Shown: piece after piece, positions 53,666 through 64,000 of the stretch
Position numbering within the stretch: the first letter of the stretch is position 1
Layout: every line of letters starts with the position of its first letter
Assembly: GCA_012837715.1 (NCBI GenBank)
Contig: DUQR01000039.1
Span: 81,923-145,922, forward strand
DNA: 64,000 bases
Reading direction: 5' to 3'
From: Bacillota bacterium
GTDB lineage: Bacteria > Bacillota > UBA4882 > UBA10575
Program-made: the position numbers and the translations under genes
Notes under the pieces: model-generated
What the model was told of the DNA's origin: nothing
Database searches by the model: none
What the model saw: the letters and a program-made list of their open reading frames with translations, nothing else

Positions 53666-54102
53666 TTTTGCACCGTTCTTTCGTTGAGCAATTTAATGTT
53701 ACTTAAGTATTCGCATTTTCAACCTGTTCAGGTCTTAAGCTTCACCATAATTTAATAGTTTACCTACAGGTTGTTTTTTTCTACGGAGCAGGTTCTCTCT
53801 AAAAAAGTCGGTACTTGAATATCGCTTTTATGTCGGTTGATTGTGCTGTTAGAGATTACAGCTTCCGCAAAGTGCTTTTTTATTATATCAAAATTTATTA
53901 TCAAGAGAAAGAAGCTCGACAATAGTTACTATCAATGCTGAAATAACCTGGAAGCACCAATAAAAATGAAGCTTATGGCTACAGCAGGCGCAACACAAGG
54001 CGTGACGATAGCCAATTACCAATGTTTTCAGTATTAGGGAGGAATTACAAAACCTCAAGGAGAATTAATAATTATGTTAATATTGGCCCAAAAGGAGGAA
54101 GG

Positions 54103-55065
54103 ATGGTGGCCCAGAACAACCGGCTATCCAGACTTTTGGAGATGTTCTTTACAATTCAGGCCATCCCCGGACTTTCGGCGGCAGAACTGGCCGAAAAGTG
54201 TGGAGTGAGCGTTAGACAATGTTATCGTGATCTGAAAACGCTCCAAGATGGTGGCATTCCTCTATATAATGACCGCGGGTACCGGATCCTTAAGGGTTCG
54301 GTTTTAAAGGATATTACCTTCACGTTGGAGGAAGCAGTGGCTTTAATTTATGGGCTTAAATTGATTGAACAACAGAAAGGCCTATTGGATACTCCCACTC
54401 AAGCTTTGGAAAAGTTGATGGTGCGTCTACCGGAAGGACTACGGAACAGGTTAGGGAGCATTGAAGAACGGGTTGAGATCGATATAACGCCCGCGGCAGA
54501 TTATTCCGATAAAGGACCGCTTTTTAAGGCAATTAATACGGCAATACAAGAAAAGAACATCCTAGAAATTGATTATTACAGTTTCTCCCGCGATACGGTA
54601 ACGACACGAAAAGTTAACCCATATAAGCTGGTCTTTAAAGACGGATTTTGGTATTTGGTCGGTTACTGTCACCATCGGGACAAAGTTCGTGTCTTCCGCG
54701 TCGACCGGATTCGTTTCTTTAGTTTAACTAACGAAAAGTTCGTCCCCCCGATTGATTTTGATTTTGAACAGTACATGGGGGCGGCTTGGCAGATGGAACG
54801 GGGCGAAGAGTTTTATTTTAAAGTTCGTTTTTTCGGGGAAGCAGCCCGCTTTATTAAAGAAACAAATTTCCATCCTTCGCAACAGATCATAGAAGAACCT
54901 GAAGGAGCCCTTATCTTTACTGCTCGCGCCGGCGGAATGCGGTCCGTGCTTCGTTGGGTTCTTTCTTTTGGCGATGAAGCTGAGGTATTGGAACCAGAAG
55001 CTTTAAGAGGGATGGTGGCGGAGGTGATGGCATCAGGTGCGCGTAGATATGAGGAAGGAAAATAA
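54103..55065 (+). CDS. HTH/WYL-domain transcriptional regulator adjacent to cas operon
   Basis: LSAAELAEKCGVSVRQCYRDLKTLQDGGIPLYNDRGYR; WYLVGYCHHRDKVRVFRVDRI; SD AAAGGAGGAAGG. Confidence 0.88.
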   Translation: MVAQNNRLSRLLEMFFTIQAIPGLSAAELAEKCGVSVRQCYRDLKTLQDGGIPLYNDRGYRILKGSVLKDITFTLEEAVALIYGLKLIEQQKGLLDTPTQALEKLMVRLPEGLRNRLGSIEERVEIDITPAADYSDKGPLFKAINTAIQEKNILEIDYYSFSRDTVTTRKVNPYKLVFKDGFWYLVGYCHHRDKVRVFRVDRIRFFSLTNEKFVPPIDFDFEQYMGAAWQMERGEEFYFKVRFFGEAARFIKETNFHPSQQIIEEPEGALIFTARAGGMRSVLRWVLSFGDEAEVLEPEALRGMVAEVMASGARRYEEGK

Positions 55066-55103
55066 ACAATCGGTAGAACAAAAAAAGCAAGGCGTTAGGC
55101 AGC

Positions 55104-55115
55104 GAACTGATGTTC
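55104..55115. promoter_or_regulatory. LexA-like box (GAAC-N4-GTTC) upstream of cas3
   Basis: CGAACTGATGTTCA; 12 of 14 positions match Gram-positive consensus CGAACRNRYGTTYC. Confidence 0.35.
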
Positions 55116-55116
55116 A

Positions 55117-55134
55117 GTGACATACTGTTGTCAC
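55117..55134. promoter_or_regulatory. Inverted repeat, candidate operator upstream of cas3
   Basis: GTGACA-TACTGT-TGTCAC. Confidence 0.4.
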
Positions 55135-55172
55135 GGGGGTGTGGTAGGATGTAGGAGAAAGATGAACATTAT

Positions 55173-55202
55173 GTCACTCTTGATAAGAGTGTGGATTGAA
55201 AC
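55173..55202 (+). promoter_or_regulatory. Solitary diverged CRISPR repeat-like element in cas3 5' leader
   Basis: GT-CACTCTT-GAT-AAGAGTG-TGGATTGAAAC vs array repeat GT-CGCTCCT-CACGT-AGGAGCG-TGGATTGAAAC; identical 11-nt 3' end, two compensatory stem changes. Confidence 0.85.
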
Positions 55203-55240
55203 AGTTCTTTGTCGGTTTTTTGTGAAAGGATTGTCAATAA

Positions 55241-57748
55241 ATGAGTCAAAATCATGACGTTTATTTTCGTAAAGATCAATTAAATGCTTGCTCTGATTTC
55301 ATAGCCCACCGTCGCGAAAAAGACGGTGAAATGCAAAGTCTCTGGGATCATTTAATGGAAACTTCACGTTTATCAGCTGGATTTGCTGGAAAAATTGGTC
55401 TACCAAGGCATGGTGAATTATTGGGCCTCTTGCATGATCTGGGAAAAGCAAGCGCCGAATTTGACCGGTATATTCGATCGGCAACCGGGTTGATTGATCC
55501 GGATGAGGATGATTACGTGGATGCGGTGGAGCAAAAAGGGAAAATTGACCATTCAAGTGCTGGCGCACAGATCATATACCGTGCGCTTTCGAAGAAAAAT
55601 AAGGGAAGTTTGGCTGCGGAAATGTTGTCCTTGGTAATCGCTTCTCATCATTCCGGGTTGATAGATTGTTTCACTCCAGACGGGGTCGATAACTTATCCC
55701 GGAGAATGAGCAAATCTGATGAGAAAACAAGAACTACAGAATCCTATAGCAATTTAGTTGATTCCCTTAAGGGGAAGATGGAAGAAATCTTGGCTGATGA
55801 TAACATCATCAGTCAAATAAATCAAACGCTCAAGTCCTTACAAGAAAAGAATGATTCCCAAGAAACTTTTATGTTTAAAACAGGATTACTTATCAGATAC
55901 CTTTTTAGTTGCCTAATTGACGCAGACAGGATAAATACGGCGGATTTTGAAATTCCCCAGCAAGCCAAAGAAAGAAATTTGGGTGTTGATCCATGTTGGG
56001 ATGTTTTAATTAAAAAATTAGATAGACGTTTAAGTGAATTCTCTTGTCAGAATCATGTTGACTTTATCCGTGGCGAGGTCTCCGATGAATGTCTGAGATT
56101 TGCCAAAAAACCAAAAGGCCTTTACCAATTAACAGTCCCGACAGGCGGTGGGAAAACTCTTTCTAGCTTGCGATTTGCTCTGAACCATGCCTGGGAACAT
56201 GGTATGGATAGAATTATCTATATTCTTCCATATACTTCAATTATTGACCAAAATGCCGATACGGTCAGGAAGATTCTCGAAGAGAAAACGGACGAGGAAA
56301 ACTATGCCACTAATATTGTCTTGGAGCATCACTCAAACTTGACCCCGGAAAAAGAAACCAGCCGCCAAAAGCTGTTGGCAGAAAATTGGGACGCTCCGGT
56401 GATTTTCACCACTATGGTTCAGTTCTTAGAAGCTATTTTCGGCGCCGGGACACGAAATGCCCGGAGAATGCACCAACTGGCCAGGGCGGTGCTTATCTTC
56501 GACGAGATACAAACCCTGCCCGTTAAATGTGTCCATTTATTTAATATCGCTATTCGTTTTTTGATACAAAACTGTGGTTCAACAGTTGTTCTTTGTACGG
56601 CGACCCAGCCTTTACTGGATAAGGTGAAACCTGTTTCCAGAGCTTTGCAAATTACTTCTGAACAACAAATGACCCCGGATATAAAGAGGTTATTTAAGGA
56701 GTTGAAACGGGTTGAGGTTTATGATCGGCGAAAAATTGGCGGCTGGACTGTCGAAGAAGTGGCCGAATTGGCAAAGAAGGAATTGGATGAAACAAAAAGT
56801 GTTTTGGTTATTGTCAATACTAAAAAAGCCGCGGTCAATCTCTTTCAAAAACTGAAAACTCATGCCCAAGCGCAGGTGTATCATCTCAGCACTAATATGT
56901 GCCCAGCACACCGGATGGAAGTCTTAGAAAGCGTTAAGGAATGTTTGCCAGATAAAAAGCCGGTCATTTGTGTGAGTACTCAGCTTATTGAAGCTGGGGT
57001 TGATATCGATTTTGGTAGTGTTATTCGTTATCTAGCGGGACTTGATTCCATCGCCCAAGCTGCAGGTCGTTGTAACCGTAACGGGTTAAGGCCCCGGCTG
57101 GGACGGGTTTTCATTCTCAATCCCAAAGAAGAGAATTTGGGGAATCTGCAAGATATCAAAATTGGCCGGGATATAGCAGAACGCGTGCTTGATGATTTCT
57201 TGGCGGCTCCGGAGGAGTTTGATGGAGATATCTTAGGCCCCAAAGCCATGGAACGTTACTATCATTATTATTTTTACGCACGAAAGGAAGAGATGAGCTA
57301 CAAACTAGGTGCAAATTCAGGAATCGGCAGAGCGGATAATTTATTTGAGCTTCTTTCTACCAACAAGCTATCGGTTGATGCTTACCAAAGAGTAAATCAA
57401 TCTCAGCCCTCAATCATGTTACGACAATCCTTCATGTCGGCTTTTAAAGAGTTTCATGTAATAGACTCACCCACCCGCGGTATTGTTGTTCCATATAAAG
57501 AAGGGGCAGATATTATTACCCAGCTTTGTGCAGCTAAAAACTTGGAAAAGCAATATCAATTATTGAAAAAAGCACAAAGATATTCGGTTAATATTTTCTC
57601 GCAACTATTCGACGAATTGTTGCAAAAGAAAGCTATTCACCAGGTACAGGAAGGAACGGGAGTTTTTTATTTGGACAAGCGGTACTATACGACTGAATAC
57701 GGTCTAAGTAAAGATCCGGTCGGGGAGATGGATATTCTAAACGTTTAG
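55241..57748 (+). CDS. cas3: CRISPR-associated helicase/nuclease Cas3 (type I-C, HD domain N-terminal)
   Basis: [16 protein letters not shown] (HD), [41 protein letters not shown]. Confidence 0.95.
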
Positions 57749-57759
57749 GGAGGTGCATT

Positions 57760-58479
57760 ATGGAAAACAGAGTGGAATTTACGGTTTACGGCAAGTATGC
57801 CTTGTTTACTGATCCTCTAACTAAGATTGGGGGAGAAAAATGTTCTTACCAAATCCCAACCTACCAAGCTTTGAAAGGGATTTTGGAGTCGGTTTACTGG
57901 AAGCCGACAATTGTTTGGTATATCGATAAAGTCAGAATAATGAAACCGATCAGAACCCAAACCCGAAGTGCTAAACCGATCAACTACGGTGGTGGTCACT
58001 TCTTGTCGATCTATACCTACCTGGCAGATGTGGAGTACCAGGTCCAAGCACATTTCGAATGGAATTTAAACCGGGAAGATCTCGCTAAAGACCGGAATGA
58101 GAACAAGCATTATTTTGTCGCCAAGCGGATGATTGACCGGGGTGGGAGAAGGGATATCTTTCTTGGAGCACGGGAATGCCAGGGTTATGTAGAACCCTGT
58201 AGGTTCGGTGAGGGCGAGGGGTTTTACGATAACTATGGCGAACTGGCTTTTGACTTGATGTTTCACGGTTTTGATTATCCTGACGAAAGTGGAAAAAGTG
58301 AGCTTTACGCCCGTTTTTGGCGTCCAAAAATGATCAATGGTGTGGTCGAATTTCCCCGCCCGGAAGATTGTCAGCTTCGCAAATTTGTCAGGAAAATGAT
58401 TGCTAGTCAAATTGAAACATCTGGACTGGCAGAAGAAGGATTGTTGAATGGATATTCCGGAAAGGAGGTGGAAGGATGA
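57760..58479 (+). CDS. cas5c: Cas5c (Cas5d), type I-C crRNA-processing endonuclease
   Basis: [49 protein letters not shown]. Confidence 0.95.
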
Positions 58480-60407
58480 GTTGGATACAAAAACTTTATG
58501 AAACATACGAAAACTGTCAATCCATGATCGGCGCTGGCGCGGATGAAAAAGCAATACCATTAATACCGATCTGCCATACTACACAGCAGGCACAGATCGA
58601 AATCGTCCTTGATCAAGATGGTAATTTTGTACGGGCAAAAGTGGTTCCTAAAGAGAAAGCCCGGACTATCGTGCCGTGTACAGAGAGTTCCGGTGGTAGA
58701 GCAGGAATAAAGCCTGAAAGTCACCCGCTTTGCGATAAACTGCAATATGTGGCCGGAGATTTTGCTGATTTTGGAGGAAAAGTAACGAAAGGTTTTGCCA
58801 AAGATCCAAAAGAACCTTTTCGAAAATATAAGGAGATTCTGAGTGACTGGTGTGCCTCGCCATTCTCCCATCCCAAGTTAAAAGCTGTTTTGAAGTATAT
58901 TGAAAAAGAGCACGTAGTAAAAGACCTTGTTGTGCAGCAGATCCTCCACCTCGGAAATGACGGTAAACTCCTGGATAAGTGGGATAAAAAAAGTGGAGAA
59001 GAAACTCCGGAGATCTTTAAGGTTTTGGGAAACGCAAAACAGGGAGATGCCTTTATCCGTTGGGCTGTCGAAATCCCTGGGGACCCGCAGGCCGCTGCCT
59101 GGACTGACATGGAACTTTTTACAAGTTGGATTAGGTATTATTCATCAACAAAGCAGGGTGAGGCTTTTTGTTATGTTACCGGAGATGAACTTCCGGCTGC
59201 TGATCAACACCCGGCCAAATTGAGACATGACGGTGACAAGGCCAAACTAATTTCGTCCAATGATACCAGCGGTTTTACCTTCCGGGGGCGCTTTATCACA
59301 GCGGATCAGGCTTGTAGTGTTGGCTTCACAGTAACCCAAAAAGCACATAATGCACTTCGATGGTTGATTGGAAAGCAAGGATACAGAAAAGCAGGCCAGG
59401 CTATAGTAGCCTGGGCAGTTTCAGGTGAGAAAGTCCCTGCCCCTCTAGAGGATACCTTTTCCATGTTAGGAATTGATTCAATGGCAAGCGACTCCGAACC
59501 CTCTATTTCAACTGCCCAGGAATTTGCACTGAAGCTCAATAAGAAGATTGCCGGTTATAGCACAAAACTTGGCCCCACAACTGGCATCGTGGTCATGGCT
59601 TTGGATTCAATAAATCCAGGCCGTATGTCTATCGTCTTTTATCGGGAATTAACTGGCTCGGAATTTTTAGAAAGGATCGAGAGATGGCATAGTACTTGTT
59701 CTTGGATTCATGATTATCGCTTTACTGAAGTAGACAATGGAAAACCCGGAAAGAAAAAAGAAAGGAAACGAATTAGGTTTATCGGTGCGCCTGCCCCAAA
59801 TGATATTGCCGAAGCAGCTTACGGTAACAAGGTCGACGATAATCTTCGAAAAGCAACAGTCGAGCGAATTCTTCCATGTATAATCGATGGAAGAAAATTA
59901 CCAAAAGATCTGGTCGAATCCGCCGTTTGGCGGGCCTGCAACCGGATGGGAAAAGAAGATTGGGAATGGAATAAAACGCTCAGTATCGCTTGTGCTCTTT
60001 ATAGAAAATATTATGAAGAGGAGGAATATGAGATGGCTTTGGATGAGAATAGAAAAACCCGGGATTACCTTTACGGACGGTTGCTGGCAATAGCCGACAA
60101 CCTGGAAGAATGGGCTTTAAAAACAGCCGGCGAAAACCGCCAGACAAATGCAGCCCGTTTGATGCAACGTTTTGCAGAGCATCCGTATTCGACATGGAGG
60201 ACGATTGAATTGGCTTTAGTTCCTTACAAAGCCAGGCTCGGCAATAAAGCTGCAAAACATCAGCGGCTAATTACCAAGGTGATGAATATGTTTGAACCGG
60301 ACGATTTTATCAACGACAAGAAACTACACGGGGAATTTTTACTCGGATATCATTGCCAGCGTGAAGCCCTTTGGCGTAAGGAGCGTGATAACGAAAAGGT
60401 CTCATGA
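58476..60407 (+). CDS. cas8c: Cas8c/Csd1
   Basis: LYETYENCQ...; ATG overlaps cas5c stop; size and operon position typical. Confidence 0.93.
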
Positions 60408-60469
60408 TAATCTTCTATAGTAACAACATGTTAAAATTCAAAACAATAAATAAAGAAGGGGGATTCATA

Positions 60470-61330
60470 TTGGAAACTTTGAAGAACAAGATTGATTTTG
60501 CGGTGATTGTAACTGTAAAAAATGCCAATCCAAATGGTGATCCATTAAGCGGAAATAGGCCTCGTATTACCTATGACGGCTTGGGGGAAATCTCGGATGT
60601 ATGCATCAAAAGAAAAATAAGGAACCGTTTAATGGAAGCAGGGTATTCCGTTTTTGTCCAGTCGGACGATAACAGGGTAGACGATTACAGAAGCCTCCGT
60701 GCCCGGGCGGAAGGCGAGCTTAAAGGCATAGACATGAAAGATGAAACAAAATACCGGGAAGAAGCATGCAAAAAATGGATAGATGTCAGGGCTTTCGGCC
60801 AGGTTTTTGCCTACAGCAGCGGAAAAGACGATGAAAAAGGAGTTTCTATTGGTATCCGAGGTCCGGTCTCCATTCATCCCGCCTTTAGTGTTTGCCCCGT
60901 GAGTGTCTCCAGTATTCAGATAACTAAAAGCGTCAGCGGTGAAGGTGACGGAACGAAAAAGGCGTCTGACACAATGGGTATGAAACATCGGGTTGATCAT
61001 GGGGTATACGTTTTTTCTGGTAGTATGAACCCACAATTGGCAGAAAAAACCGGTTTTACCGATGAAGATGCGGAGGCTATTAAAAAGGTAATAGTTAGTC
61101 TATTTGAAAATGATTCGTCTTCAGCAAGACCCGAAGGGAGCATGGAGGTTTACAAGGTCTTTTGGTGGAAACACAACTGTAAAAATGGGCAATATTCCTC
61201 GGCCAAGGTGCATCAGTCATTAAAGGTATCCTTAAAAGACGGAGTTACTGACCCGAAAGACATTTCTGATTACAATATTGTAGTACAACACTTAGAAGGT
61301 TTGGAGCCGGAAATTATTGAAGGGCGCTAA
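60470..61330 (+). CDS. cas7c: Cas7c/Csd2
   Basis: LKNKIDFAVIVTVKNANPNGDPLSGNRPRITYDGLGEISDVCIKRKIRNRL; TTG start after GAAGGGGG (ORF track starts 60404). Confidence 0.94.
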   Translation: METLKNKIDFAVIVTVKNANPNGDPLSGNRPRITYDGLGEISDVCIKRKIRNRLMEAGYSVFVQSDDNRVDDYRSLRARAEGELKGIDMKDETKYREEACKKWIDVRAFGQVFAYSSGKDDEKGVSIGIRGPVSIHPAFSVCPVSVSSIQITKSVSGEGDGTKKASDTMGMKHRVDHGVYVFSGSMNPQLAEKTGFTDEDAEAIKKVIVSLFENDSSSARPEGSMEVYKVFWWKHNCKNGQYSSAKVHQSLKVSLKDGVTDPKDISDYNIVVQHLEGLEPEIIEGR

Positions 61331-61336
61331 AAAACG

Positions 61337-62002
61337 ATGTCTACCTATTCTGATGATGGATTGCTCATGCTTTCTGGCATCCAGCATTTTTTCTTTTGTC
61401 GTCGGCAATGGGCGCTGATCCATATTGAACAACAATGGCAAGAAAATATCCTTACCTTTGGTGGGCGAGAATTACACGAAAGAGTAGATGATCCGTTCTT
61501 CACCGAAGCGCGGGGAACGGTTCTAGTAACCCGTTCCCTGCCGATTATTTCACGAAGGCTAGGGTTGTATGGCGTTGCAGATGTAGTTGAGTTTCACAAG
61601 AGTGAAGAAGGTGTCAAGTTAAAGGAACGCAAGGGGCTTTGGCAACCTCATCCTGTGGAATATAAATATGGTGAGCCAAAGATAGATGAGCGTGATATGG
61701 TTCAACTTTGTGCTCAAGCCCTATGCCTTGAAGAGATGTTTAATACTTCCGTTATGGAAGGAGATATATTCTATGGTCGCACCCGGCGACGGCAAAGAGT
61801 GGAATTTGATGAAGACCTGCGGCAAATGGTAATGGAATTGAGTGTGGAGATGCACCGTTTGTTTGAAGAGGGGATAACGCCTTTACCGGAGCATACTAGA
61901 GCTTGTCGTAGCTGTTCTTTAGTTGATATCTGTATCCCTCACACTAGTAAAAAGAGATCTGTCCGCCGTTATCTGAATGATGCTTTACGTGAGATGAAAT
62001 AG
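61337..62002 (+). CDS. cas4: Cas4
   Basis: LSGIQHFFFCRRQWALIHIEQQW; PVEYKYGEPK; CRSCSLVDIC. Confidence 0.94.
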   Translation: MSTYSDDGLLMLSGIQHFFFCRRQWALIHIEQQWQENILTFGGRELHERVDDPFFTEARGTVLVTRSLPIISRRLGLYGVADVVEFHKSEEGVKLKERKGLWQPHPVEYKYGEPKIDERDMVQLCAQALCLEEMFNTSVMEGDIFYGRTRRRQRVEFDEDLRQMVMELSVEMHRLFEEGITPLPEHTRACRSCSLVDICIPHTSKKRSVRRYLNDALREMK

Positions 62003-62023
62003 AAAGGAGATGAGGCCCTCAAA

Positions 62024-63055
62024 TTGCGGAAATTACTAAATGTGCTATACGTAACATCACCCGACGCTTATATTGCTAAGGATGGCGAAAATGTATTGGT
62101 TTTAGTGGGGGAAGAGACGAAACTACGAATCCCAATCCATAATTTGGAGGGAATAGTTTGCTTCGGGTATACGGGAGCGAGTCCGGCTTTAATGCATCTT
62201 TGTGTGGAAAGGAATGTGGGGCTTTCTTTTCATTCGGAAAGTGGACGGTTTCTAGCGAGAGTTACGGGTCGAGTTAGTGGTAATGTGTTATTAAGGCGTA
62301 AACAGTATAGAATAGCTGATAACGTAGATGGATCTTTACAATTCGCGAAAGGCTTCGTTTTTGGAAAGATATATAACAGCAGATGCGTTTTGCAACGTTT
62401 TTTACGTGATCATGGTGCAAAGGACGATTATTCAGATATACATGAAGGAGTTAAGTTTCTATCGCTGCAGCTACAAAAAGTTGTTAACTGTAGTAATATT
62501 GGTATTCTCCGAGGGTTGGAAGGAGAAGCAGCGCGGACCTATTATGGTGTCTTTGATAAACTGATATTAGAAGGGAAAGAAGACTTTAAGTTTAATGGGC
62601 GAAGTCGGCGGCCACCTCTTGATCCGACTAATGCTCTACTCTCTTTTCTGTACACGCTTTTATCCCATGACTGTACGTCCGCTTTGGAAACTGTAGGTTT
62701 AGACCCACAAGTTGGATTTCTGCATAAAGAACGTCCAGGGCGTCCAAGCCTTTCCTTAGACTTGATGGAGGAGCTGAGACCATATCTAGTGGATCGGTTA
62801 TCTTTATCTATGATTAACAACCGACAAGTAGACATAAAAGGATTTATTACGAAGGAGTCTGGTGGTGTGATCATGACCGACGAAATGAGGAAAACCGTTA
62901 TTACTTCGTGGCAGAAAAGAAAACAAGAAGAAATAACCCATCCTTTTTTGGGTGAAAAGATACCTATTGGCTTGATTCCTTATGCGCAAGCCATGCTTCT
63001 AGCTCGCCATCTGCGAGGGGACTTGGATGCTTACCCACCATTTTTAATGAAGTGA
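62024..63055 (+). CDS. cas1: Cas1 (type I-C)
   Basis: GLEGEAARTYYGVFD; GLDPQVGFLHKERPGRPSLSLDLMEELRP. Confidence 0.97.
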   Translation: MRKLLNVLYVTSPDAYIAKDGENVLVLVGEETKLRIPIHNLEGIVCFGYTGASPALMHLCVERNVGLSFHSESGRFLARVTGRVSGNVLLRRKQYRIADNVDGSLQFAKGFVFGKIYNSRCVLQRFLRDHGAKDDYSDIHEGVKFLSLQLQKVVNCSNIGILRGLEGEAARTYYGVFDKLILEGKEDFKFNGRSRRPPLDPTNALLSFLYTLLSHDCTSALETVGLDPQVGFLHKERPGRPSLSLDLMEELRPYLVDRLSLSMINNRQVDIKGFITKESGGVIMTDEMRKTVITSWQKRKQEEITHPFLGEKIPIGLIPYAQAMLLARHLRGDLDAYPPFLMK

Positions 63056-63067
63056 TGGTGAGTTGCG

Positions 63068-63358
63068 ATGATGGTTTTGGTTACTTACGATGTAAGCACA
63101 GAGAATTCAGAAGGGAGGAAACGTCTGAGAAAAGTAGCAAAACATTGCCAGAACTATGGTCAAAGAGTTCAAAATTCAGTTTTTGAATGCCTGGTTGACC
63201 CGGTTCAATTTGCACAATTAAGAAAGCAACTTGAACAAATTATTGATCCAACTGAGGACAGCCTAAGATATTATTATCTCGGTCGAAATTGGAAAAATAG
63301 AGTTGAACATGTGGGAGCTAAGGTTACATATGATCCGGAAGGGGTATTAACAGTATAG
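63068..63358 (+). CDS. cas2: Cas2
   Basis: MVLVTYDVSTENSEGRKRLRKVAKHCQNYGQRVQNSVFEC. Confidence 0.97.
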   Translation: MMVLVTYDVSTENSEGRKRLRKVAKHCQNYGQRVQNSVFECLVDPVQFAQLRKQLEQIIDPTEDSLRYYYLGRNWKNRVEHVGAKVTYDPEGVLTV

Positions 63359-63524: not shown

Positions 63525-64000
63525 GTCGCTCCTCACGTAGGAGCGTGGATTGAAACCACCAATTTTCCGCGTGGGGAGATAAGGGTTTCGTCGCTCCTCA
63601 CGTAGGAGCGTGGATTGAAACCCTCTCCTGCTTAAAAGTATCCATTCCTTGCCATCGTCGCTCCTCACGTAGGAGCGTGGATTGAAACTTTTCCTCCCTT
63701 CCTTTTTCCTCCATCGTTACCGTCGCTCCTCACGTAGGAGCGTGGATTGAAACCTTTCCATCGTCATCAAGAGCATCAAATTGGAAGTCGCTCCTCACGT
63801 AGGAGCGTGGATTGAAACATCTGATCGGCTTGTTATCGATCAGCCGTATCAGCTGTCGCTCCTCACGTAGGAGCGTGGATTGAAACGCGGGAATGATGAA
63901 AATAAAATGCTTTCCATAGCTGTCGCTCCTCACGTAGGAGCGTGGATTGAAACAGTATCGACATCTGCAAGCTTCCCAACAAAACGGAGTCGCTCCTCAC
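63525..64000 (+). CRISPR. Type I-C CRISPR array, 7 complete repeats plus truncated 8th; continues past window
   Basis: Repeat GTCGCTCCTCACGTAGGAGCGTGGATTGAAAC (32 nt) at 63525, 63590, 63657, 63722, 63787, 63855, 63922, 63989; spacers 33-36 nt. Confidence 0.99.

Follow-up and report, generated by a model that had tools for sequence, protein, structure and literature searches.

How cells match their Cas proteins to the supply of crRNA is an open question, one that CreR answers through guides directed at cas promoters. Here we consider it at a type I-C locus of a Bacillota bacterium, contained in a 64,000-nt stretch of contig DUQR01000039.1 (hereafter the window), where a single diverged CRISPR repeat stands in the predicted leader of cas3. 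What might such a unit do for the operon whose mRNA would carry it?

The solitary unit is a diverged type I-C repeat of 30 nt (GTCACTCTTGATAAGAGTGTGGATTGAAAC, 55173–55202, plus strand) and is the sole handle match outside the arrays. Its hairpin, CACTCTT-GAT-AAGAGTG (55175–55191), has stem arms at 55175–55181 and 55185–55191 that pair throughout (7/7) around a 3-nt loop, and it is present in the minimum free energy fold of the leader, the stability of which is unremarkable as a whole (z = -0.35). The last 11 nt (TGGATTGAAAC, 55192–55202) are identical to the 5' handle of the array repeat (11/11), placing the expected Cas5c cut at 55191/55192. The unit ends 38 nt before the cas3 ATG at 55241 and shares the orientation of the window's CRISPR array (63525–64000, plus strand), which continues beyond both window and contig and whose repeat, GTCGCTCCTCACGTAGGAGCGTGGATTGAAAC, has a loop of 5 nt. 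An earlier sequence-only reading had described the unit in these terms, and its sequence, coordinates, spacing, orientation, handle, fully paired 7-bp stem and shortened loop all proved exact.

That reading also regarded the stem changes as compensatory. Both differences from the array repeat are indeed paired (G-C to A-U and C-G to U-A), but the term holds only relative to today's array repeat. Stems of the form CACTC...GAGTG occur in other I-C arrays too (L014, L025) and, as described below, a sister unit has been evolving apart from the arrays, so the difference may in part reflect ancestry instead of compensation in place.

A count across the 2.4-Mb assembly gives 12 copies of the string GTGGATTGAAAC, one of them the solitary unit. 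The other 11 belong to arrays and are spaced accordingly, seven in that of the window and four where contig C3 begins. When the unit was tested as an array remnant, no further repeat copies were found at array spacing, and it is the only one within 8 kb. The C3 copies form part of another array fragment bearing this handle, located at the contig edge (C3:1–240, L020), into which the window's array may continue.

The unit precedes an operon in the order cas3-cas5c-cas8c-cas7-cas4-cas1-cas2, all on the plus strand. It comprises cas3 (type I-C, 55241–57748), cas5c (57760–58479, PF09704), cas8c (csd1, 58476–60407, PF09709), cas7 (csd2, 60404–61330, PF05107) and cas4, cas1 and cas2 (61337–63358). 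Cas5c is the pre-crRNA endonuclease; its closest solved relative is BhCas5c (4f3m, E = 2e-94), and its Y46, K116 and H117 correspond to the catalytic triad of that enzyme. Upstream lies a gene for a WYL/WCX-domain transcriptional regulator (54022–55065, plus strand; PF13280, PF25583, HTH_11).

Between this gene and the unit is a recognisable promoter region. A GAAC-N4-GTTC palindrome resembling the Firmicutes LexA box (GAACTGATGTTC, 55104–55115, plus strand), found also in G008 and in the cas3 promoters of G025 and G012, is followed by the cas3 promoter dyad GTGACATACTGTTGTCAC (55117–55134, plus strand), which is common to G008 and G015 and present as a variant in G012 and G025. A probable extended -10 element (TGG-TAGGAT, 55145–55150, plus strand) comes next, with TARRAT at the same spacing in G000, G008, G015, G025 and G012, from which transcription is predicted to start at about 55157. 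Downstream of the handle, the 34 nt at 55203–55236 (plus strand) would fill the Cascade backbone, array spacers being 33–36 nt, and contain the putative cas3 ribosome-binding site GAAAGGA (55224–55230, plus strand), 10 nt ahead of the ATG. No terminator-like site was found within 54900–55300, and the repeat leads straight into the ribosome-binding site and ATG of cas3. An Rfam search at the leader returned no family, only a sub-threshold miRNA match attributable to chance. Predicted pairing of the handle and seed region with the Shine-Dalgarno sequence in the leader fold was set aside as marginal (shuffle fraction 0.054).

Two further observations concern the promoter itself. In several genomes of the class, the LexA-box-like palindrome and the cas3 dyad stand side by side, pointing to possible SOS control of cas3. 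The dyad (GTGACA-N6-TGTCAC) together with a GAAC-N4-GTTC-like box also occurs in genomes and contigs without I-C genes (L183, L188, L189, L191), and the pair may mark a wider regulon.

Five cas3 loci of the class have this promoter block of LexA-like box, dyad and TARRAT in common, with some variation: the palindrome is degenerate in G015, and the GTGACA...TGTCA dyad reads GTGTCA in G025. In G015, G025 and G012 this promoter leads directly to cas3 with no intervening repeat, which indicates that the promoter is older and that the repeat was added inside what is probably an existing 5'UTR in the window's genus. A genome of the same genus, G008, which came to light when the upstream dyad was used as a search pattern, has the same promoter followed by GTCACTCCTGATAAGGGTGTGGGTTTAAAC, an ortholog of the solitary unit; these two are the only orthologous copies found. 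As G008 has an array repeat of its own (GTCACCCCTCTTACGGGGGTGTGGATTGAAAC), the solitary units are orthologs evolving apart from the arrays. The expectation that the element would be conserved upstream of cas3 in relatives is therefore borne out within the genus, while the wider class keeps the promoter without the repeat.

Between the window and G008, the repeat is identical at 26/30 positions and the promoter at 60/69 (both 87%), and the repeat lies 22 nt after the -10 element in both. The comparator, fourfold sites of cas1/cas2, gives 58/106 (55%), on the assumption that the leader and these genes share their history. For the repeat, 26/30 at an expectation of 0.55 corresponds to P = 2.4e-4 in a single species pair that involves a 2.5-kb MAG contig, and local recombination could mimic constraint. 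Identity falls to 58% over the 38 nt 3' of the repeat; the first 10 nt agree at 8/10 positions, differing at 2 and 6. By these comparisons, the solitary element is probably under selection.

The G008 locus itself is no longer intact. I-C cas8 and cas7 are absent from that genome, its cas3 is truncated and joined to cas1, and its unit differs from that of the window by a U-G change and a C-A mismatch in the stem and by two bases of the handle. Stem pairing is thus not maintained in G008, whereas the window copy is intact; such decay would be as expected if selection had been lifted after loss of the effector genes. The maintained covariation envisaged by the sequence-only reading is accordingly weakly supported, with one compatible stem change set against one broken pair and two altered handle positions in a genome whose effector genes are gone. 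The distance from repeat to ATG is about 93 nt in this dead locus, and coverage of the Shine-Dalgarno sequence is not conserved there. The collapsed locus (L194, G008 contig 49) is of interest in its own right: the window's leader stands ahead of a truncated cas3 that belongs to another I-C clade and is joined to the last part of a cas1 almost identical to that of the window, after which come cas2 and an array. This arrangement suggests exchange of the effector module under a kept promoter followed by deletion, or else an assembly join.

For a broader view, a collection of about 185 I-C loci was assembled, in part through a phylum-wide search for the Csd1 family and in part through a Cas3 alignment used against all bacteria. 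Each locus was oriented by its cas3 and inspected for units that combine handle and hairpin and lie outside arrays. Units matching the handle at 10/11 or better and having a stem of 5 bp or more numbered 23 per 188 kb near cas3/cas5 starts and 19 per 3.9 Mb elsewhere, in a count that predates the addition of the last 20 loci; by this enrichment, units near the starts exceed chance. Read by eye, many resemble small-RNA genes in which a diverged repeat is followed by roughly 25–35 nt and an intrinsic terminator, as upstream of cas3 in L092, L059, L055, L075 and L176, or antisense in the cas3-cas5 gap in L156, L159, L162 and L165. A handle-like match in L144 was rejected because homologous Psychrobacter leaders do not have it. 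Some loci show arrays or their remains in this position: arrays directly upstream of cas3 in L079, L220 and L221 end in a repeat and a hairpin-T tract, a single repeat is left upstream of cas3 in L080, and L155 has a decayed mini-array with two recognisable repeat remnants upstream of cas3, besides a CreR-like unit before cas5.

Whether a unit behaves as a guide was assessed by taking the 20 nt after each handle and seeking a TTC-flanked match within 700 nt, with shuffled guides as the control. A target at p ≤ 0.01 was found for 19/34 lone repeats near cas3/cas5 as against 4/94 handle matches elsewhere, three of those four being genuine elements that fall slightly beyond the region limits. Across the 22 target-bearing elements, positions 1–5, 7–9, 11 and 13–16 match in 18–22 of 22 cases, whereas positions 6, 12 and 18, which were excluded from the target score, match in 5, 8 and 6 of 22, the level expected by chance. 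Had the matches come from simple duplication, identity would be expected at these unscored positions too; agreement at chance level there favours Cascade-type pairing, in which every sixth base is flipped out. The targets mostly adjoin the cas5 or cas3 promoter, and the elements of these related loci appear to be CreR-like autorepressor guides aimed at their own cas promoters, a conclusion that the sequences strongly support.

Such CreR-like elements lie in the cas3-cas5 gap (L156, L159, L160, L162, L163, L165, L066, L067, L074, L149, L155, L179, L209, L210, L036) or upstream of cas3 (L059, L075, L039, L176, L167, L215, L219), and many of the 22 are antisense in the gap with a terminator of their own. 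In L059 and L039 the guide targets overlap the region just upstream of the element's own repeat, as if these guides repressed their own promoter and not that of cas3. The CreR arrangement is described as common among type I and V-A systems (PMC12737573), and the survey extends its signature to type I-C at large scale, with 22 target-bearing elements. Most of the lone repeats that the survey found near I-C cas genes look like trans-acting guides, which sets a prior against a cis role for the unit in the window.

The stretch that follows the handle in the window, AGTTCTTTGTCGG, gave another result. No TTC-flanked target was found in the locus (best p = 0.56–0.59 against shuffles), a window-wide search yielded none of note, and a genome pattern search found neither TTCAGTTCNTTGT nor TTCAATTCNTTGT. 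PAMs other than TTC, tried across locus, window and genome, gave nothing above shuffles. An ATC-flanked match at 55108 on the minus strand, within the LexA-like box, was weak (9/17) and was rejected. The corresponding stretch of the G008 unit has no target in its contig (p = 0.87). Viral contigs containing the 18-nt core gave chance matches only, with no hairpin ahead of the handle, and a Cas3 search of viral contigs found none. The sequence-only reading had offered, as one of two ideas, that a processed RNA bearing this handle guides Cascade to repress cas; the idea holds for many other I-C loci, where TTC-flanked targets show the six-base period, but not for the window, where no target was found in locus or genome. 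On present evidence the unit, lacking both target and terminator, is not supported as a CreR-type guide, and without a target test a lone repeat next to cas genes should not be taken for a guide.

The other idea, that Cas5c acts on the mRNA leader of its own operon, is the one we favour, because the unit follows a promoter conserved in five genomes and precedes the cas3 ORF, a sister species retains it, the copy in the live system is intact, and the operon encodes a Cas5c with the catalytic triad of BhCas5c. Our tentative proposal, to which we attach slightly less than even confidence, is that the unit is a cis-acting 5' leader element of the cas mRNA that would be bound and cut by Cas5c and so feed back on spare effector. 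Transcription would start at about 55157, and the repeat hairpin would fold in the nascent leader at about +19 to +35. Cas5c would then bind this hairpin as if it were an array repeat and cut at 55191/55192; BhCas5c cuts at the hairpin base, leaving an 11-nt handle (PMC3727216). The enzyme would stay on the handle, with which the cas3 mRNA would now begin, and Cas7 would load on the next ~34 nt, so that handle plus 34 nt (55192–55236) would cover the GAAAGGA Shine-Dalgarno sequence. In I-C systems, assembly of Cascade on RNA is nucleated by Cas5c and Cas7, which hold the handle in a clamp (PMC7684278). Free Cas5c, or Cascade without crRNA, might in this way shut down or destabilise the cas mRNA, a negative feedback that would operate without a DNA target.

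A second lineage bears on this proposal. In L090 (G104), an intact short hairpin and handle independently occupy the same place, and that locus has neither target nor terminator. More tentatively still, the two cases suggest a target-free cis counterpart of CreR, in which Cas5c would cut the leader and Cascade would assemble on the region of the cas3 ribosome-binding site, and which would have arisen separately in at least two I-C lineages (the window's genus and L090).

Two rival readings carry enough weight to be set beside the cis-acting leader element, and we consider each of them unlikely. Processing of the handle and downstream leader could yield a trans-acting, CreR-like guide that directs Cascade to the cas promoter or another one, much as the target statistics and six-base mismatch period of the other loci imply for their elements, and the 8/10 identity with G008 just after the repeat also speaks for this reading. 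Such a guide would have to include the cas3 Shine-Dalgarno sequence in an RNA with no terminator, and the target searches in the window's genome and the G008 contig speak against it. The unit could instead be a functionless relic, whether as the final repeat left by a collapsed array or as a CreR gene whose target has gone, and to this reading we give a similarly low weight. Arrays do stand directly upstream of cas3 in L079, L220, L221 and L013, with one repeat left in L080, and the bases ahead of the unit resemble the end of the G008 array leader (AATATTAT-GTCAC versus GATATTACT-GTCAC). A relic would not be expected to retain 87% identity to its ortholog where fourfold sites retain 55%, nor an intact handle and stem in a live locus at a position fixed relative to the -10 element in both species.

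Two other readings are much less probable. The leader hairpin might serve as a decoy that soaks up free Cas5c and Cas7, making the cas mRNA a sponge as viral Racrs are; Racrs consist of single repeat units behind a promoter, and one of them, RacrIC1, is an inhibitor of a type I-C system (PMC10651486). They are described in viruses and plasmids and not in cas leaders, however, and one copy per cas mRNA would make a weak sponge, which leaves this reading very unlikely. Least probable of all is that the 17-bp palindrome at 55175–55191 is a DNA operator bound by a regulator and not an RNA element. The palindrome is a perfect inverted repeat that follows closely on the promoter, and a WYL regulator gene is adjacent, but an operator has no need of a handle matching at 11/11, the promoter comes with a dyad of its own, and in G008 the unit is kept although the WYL gene is not adjacent.

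The cis-acting leader element can be placed among several known arrangements. CreR and CRISPR-derived regulatory crRNA-like RNAs were reportedly described by Liu et al. (2023, Cell Host Microbe) and Shmakov et al. (2023, NAR). Like the window unit, CreR (reviewed in PMC12737573) is a diverged lone repeat beside cas genes that keeps its hairpin and handle and is proposed to act through the effector in negative feedback on the Cas proteins. It differs in being an RNA of its own with a guide partly matching the cas promoter, whereas the window unit lies inside the predicted cas3 leader and has no target or terminator. CreA of the CreTA toxin-antitoxin modules is likewise a crRNA-like RNA with a degenerate repeat and makes Cascade a repressor, but no toxin RNA gene or target promoter is seen at the window. 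Racrs, including the I-C RacrIC1 (PMC10651486), share with the unit a single repeat placed in an mRNA close behind the promoter, which Cas5c is expected to engage; they are anti-CRISPRs encoded by phages and plasmids, whereas the window unit is host-encoded in a cas operon leader. Autogenous leaders, such as those of ribosomal-protein operons, offer a further parallel: the mRNA leader mimics the normal RNA substrate of the protein, which when free represses the operon that encodes it. At the window, the protein bound would differ in being a processing endonuclease and in cutting the leader as well. We therefore file the window element as a variant of CRISPR-derived cas regulation and not as CreR, one that suggests a second, target-free route to matching Cas protein with crRNA, in which the repeat endonuclease would read its own mRNA.
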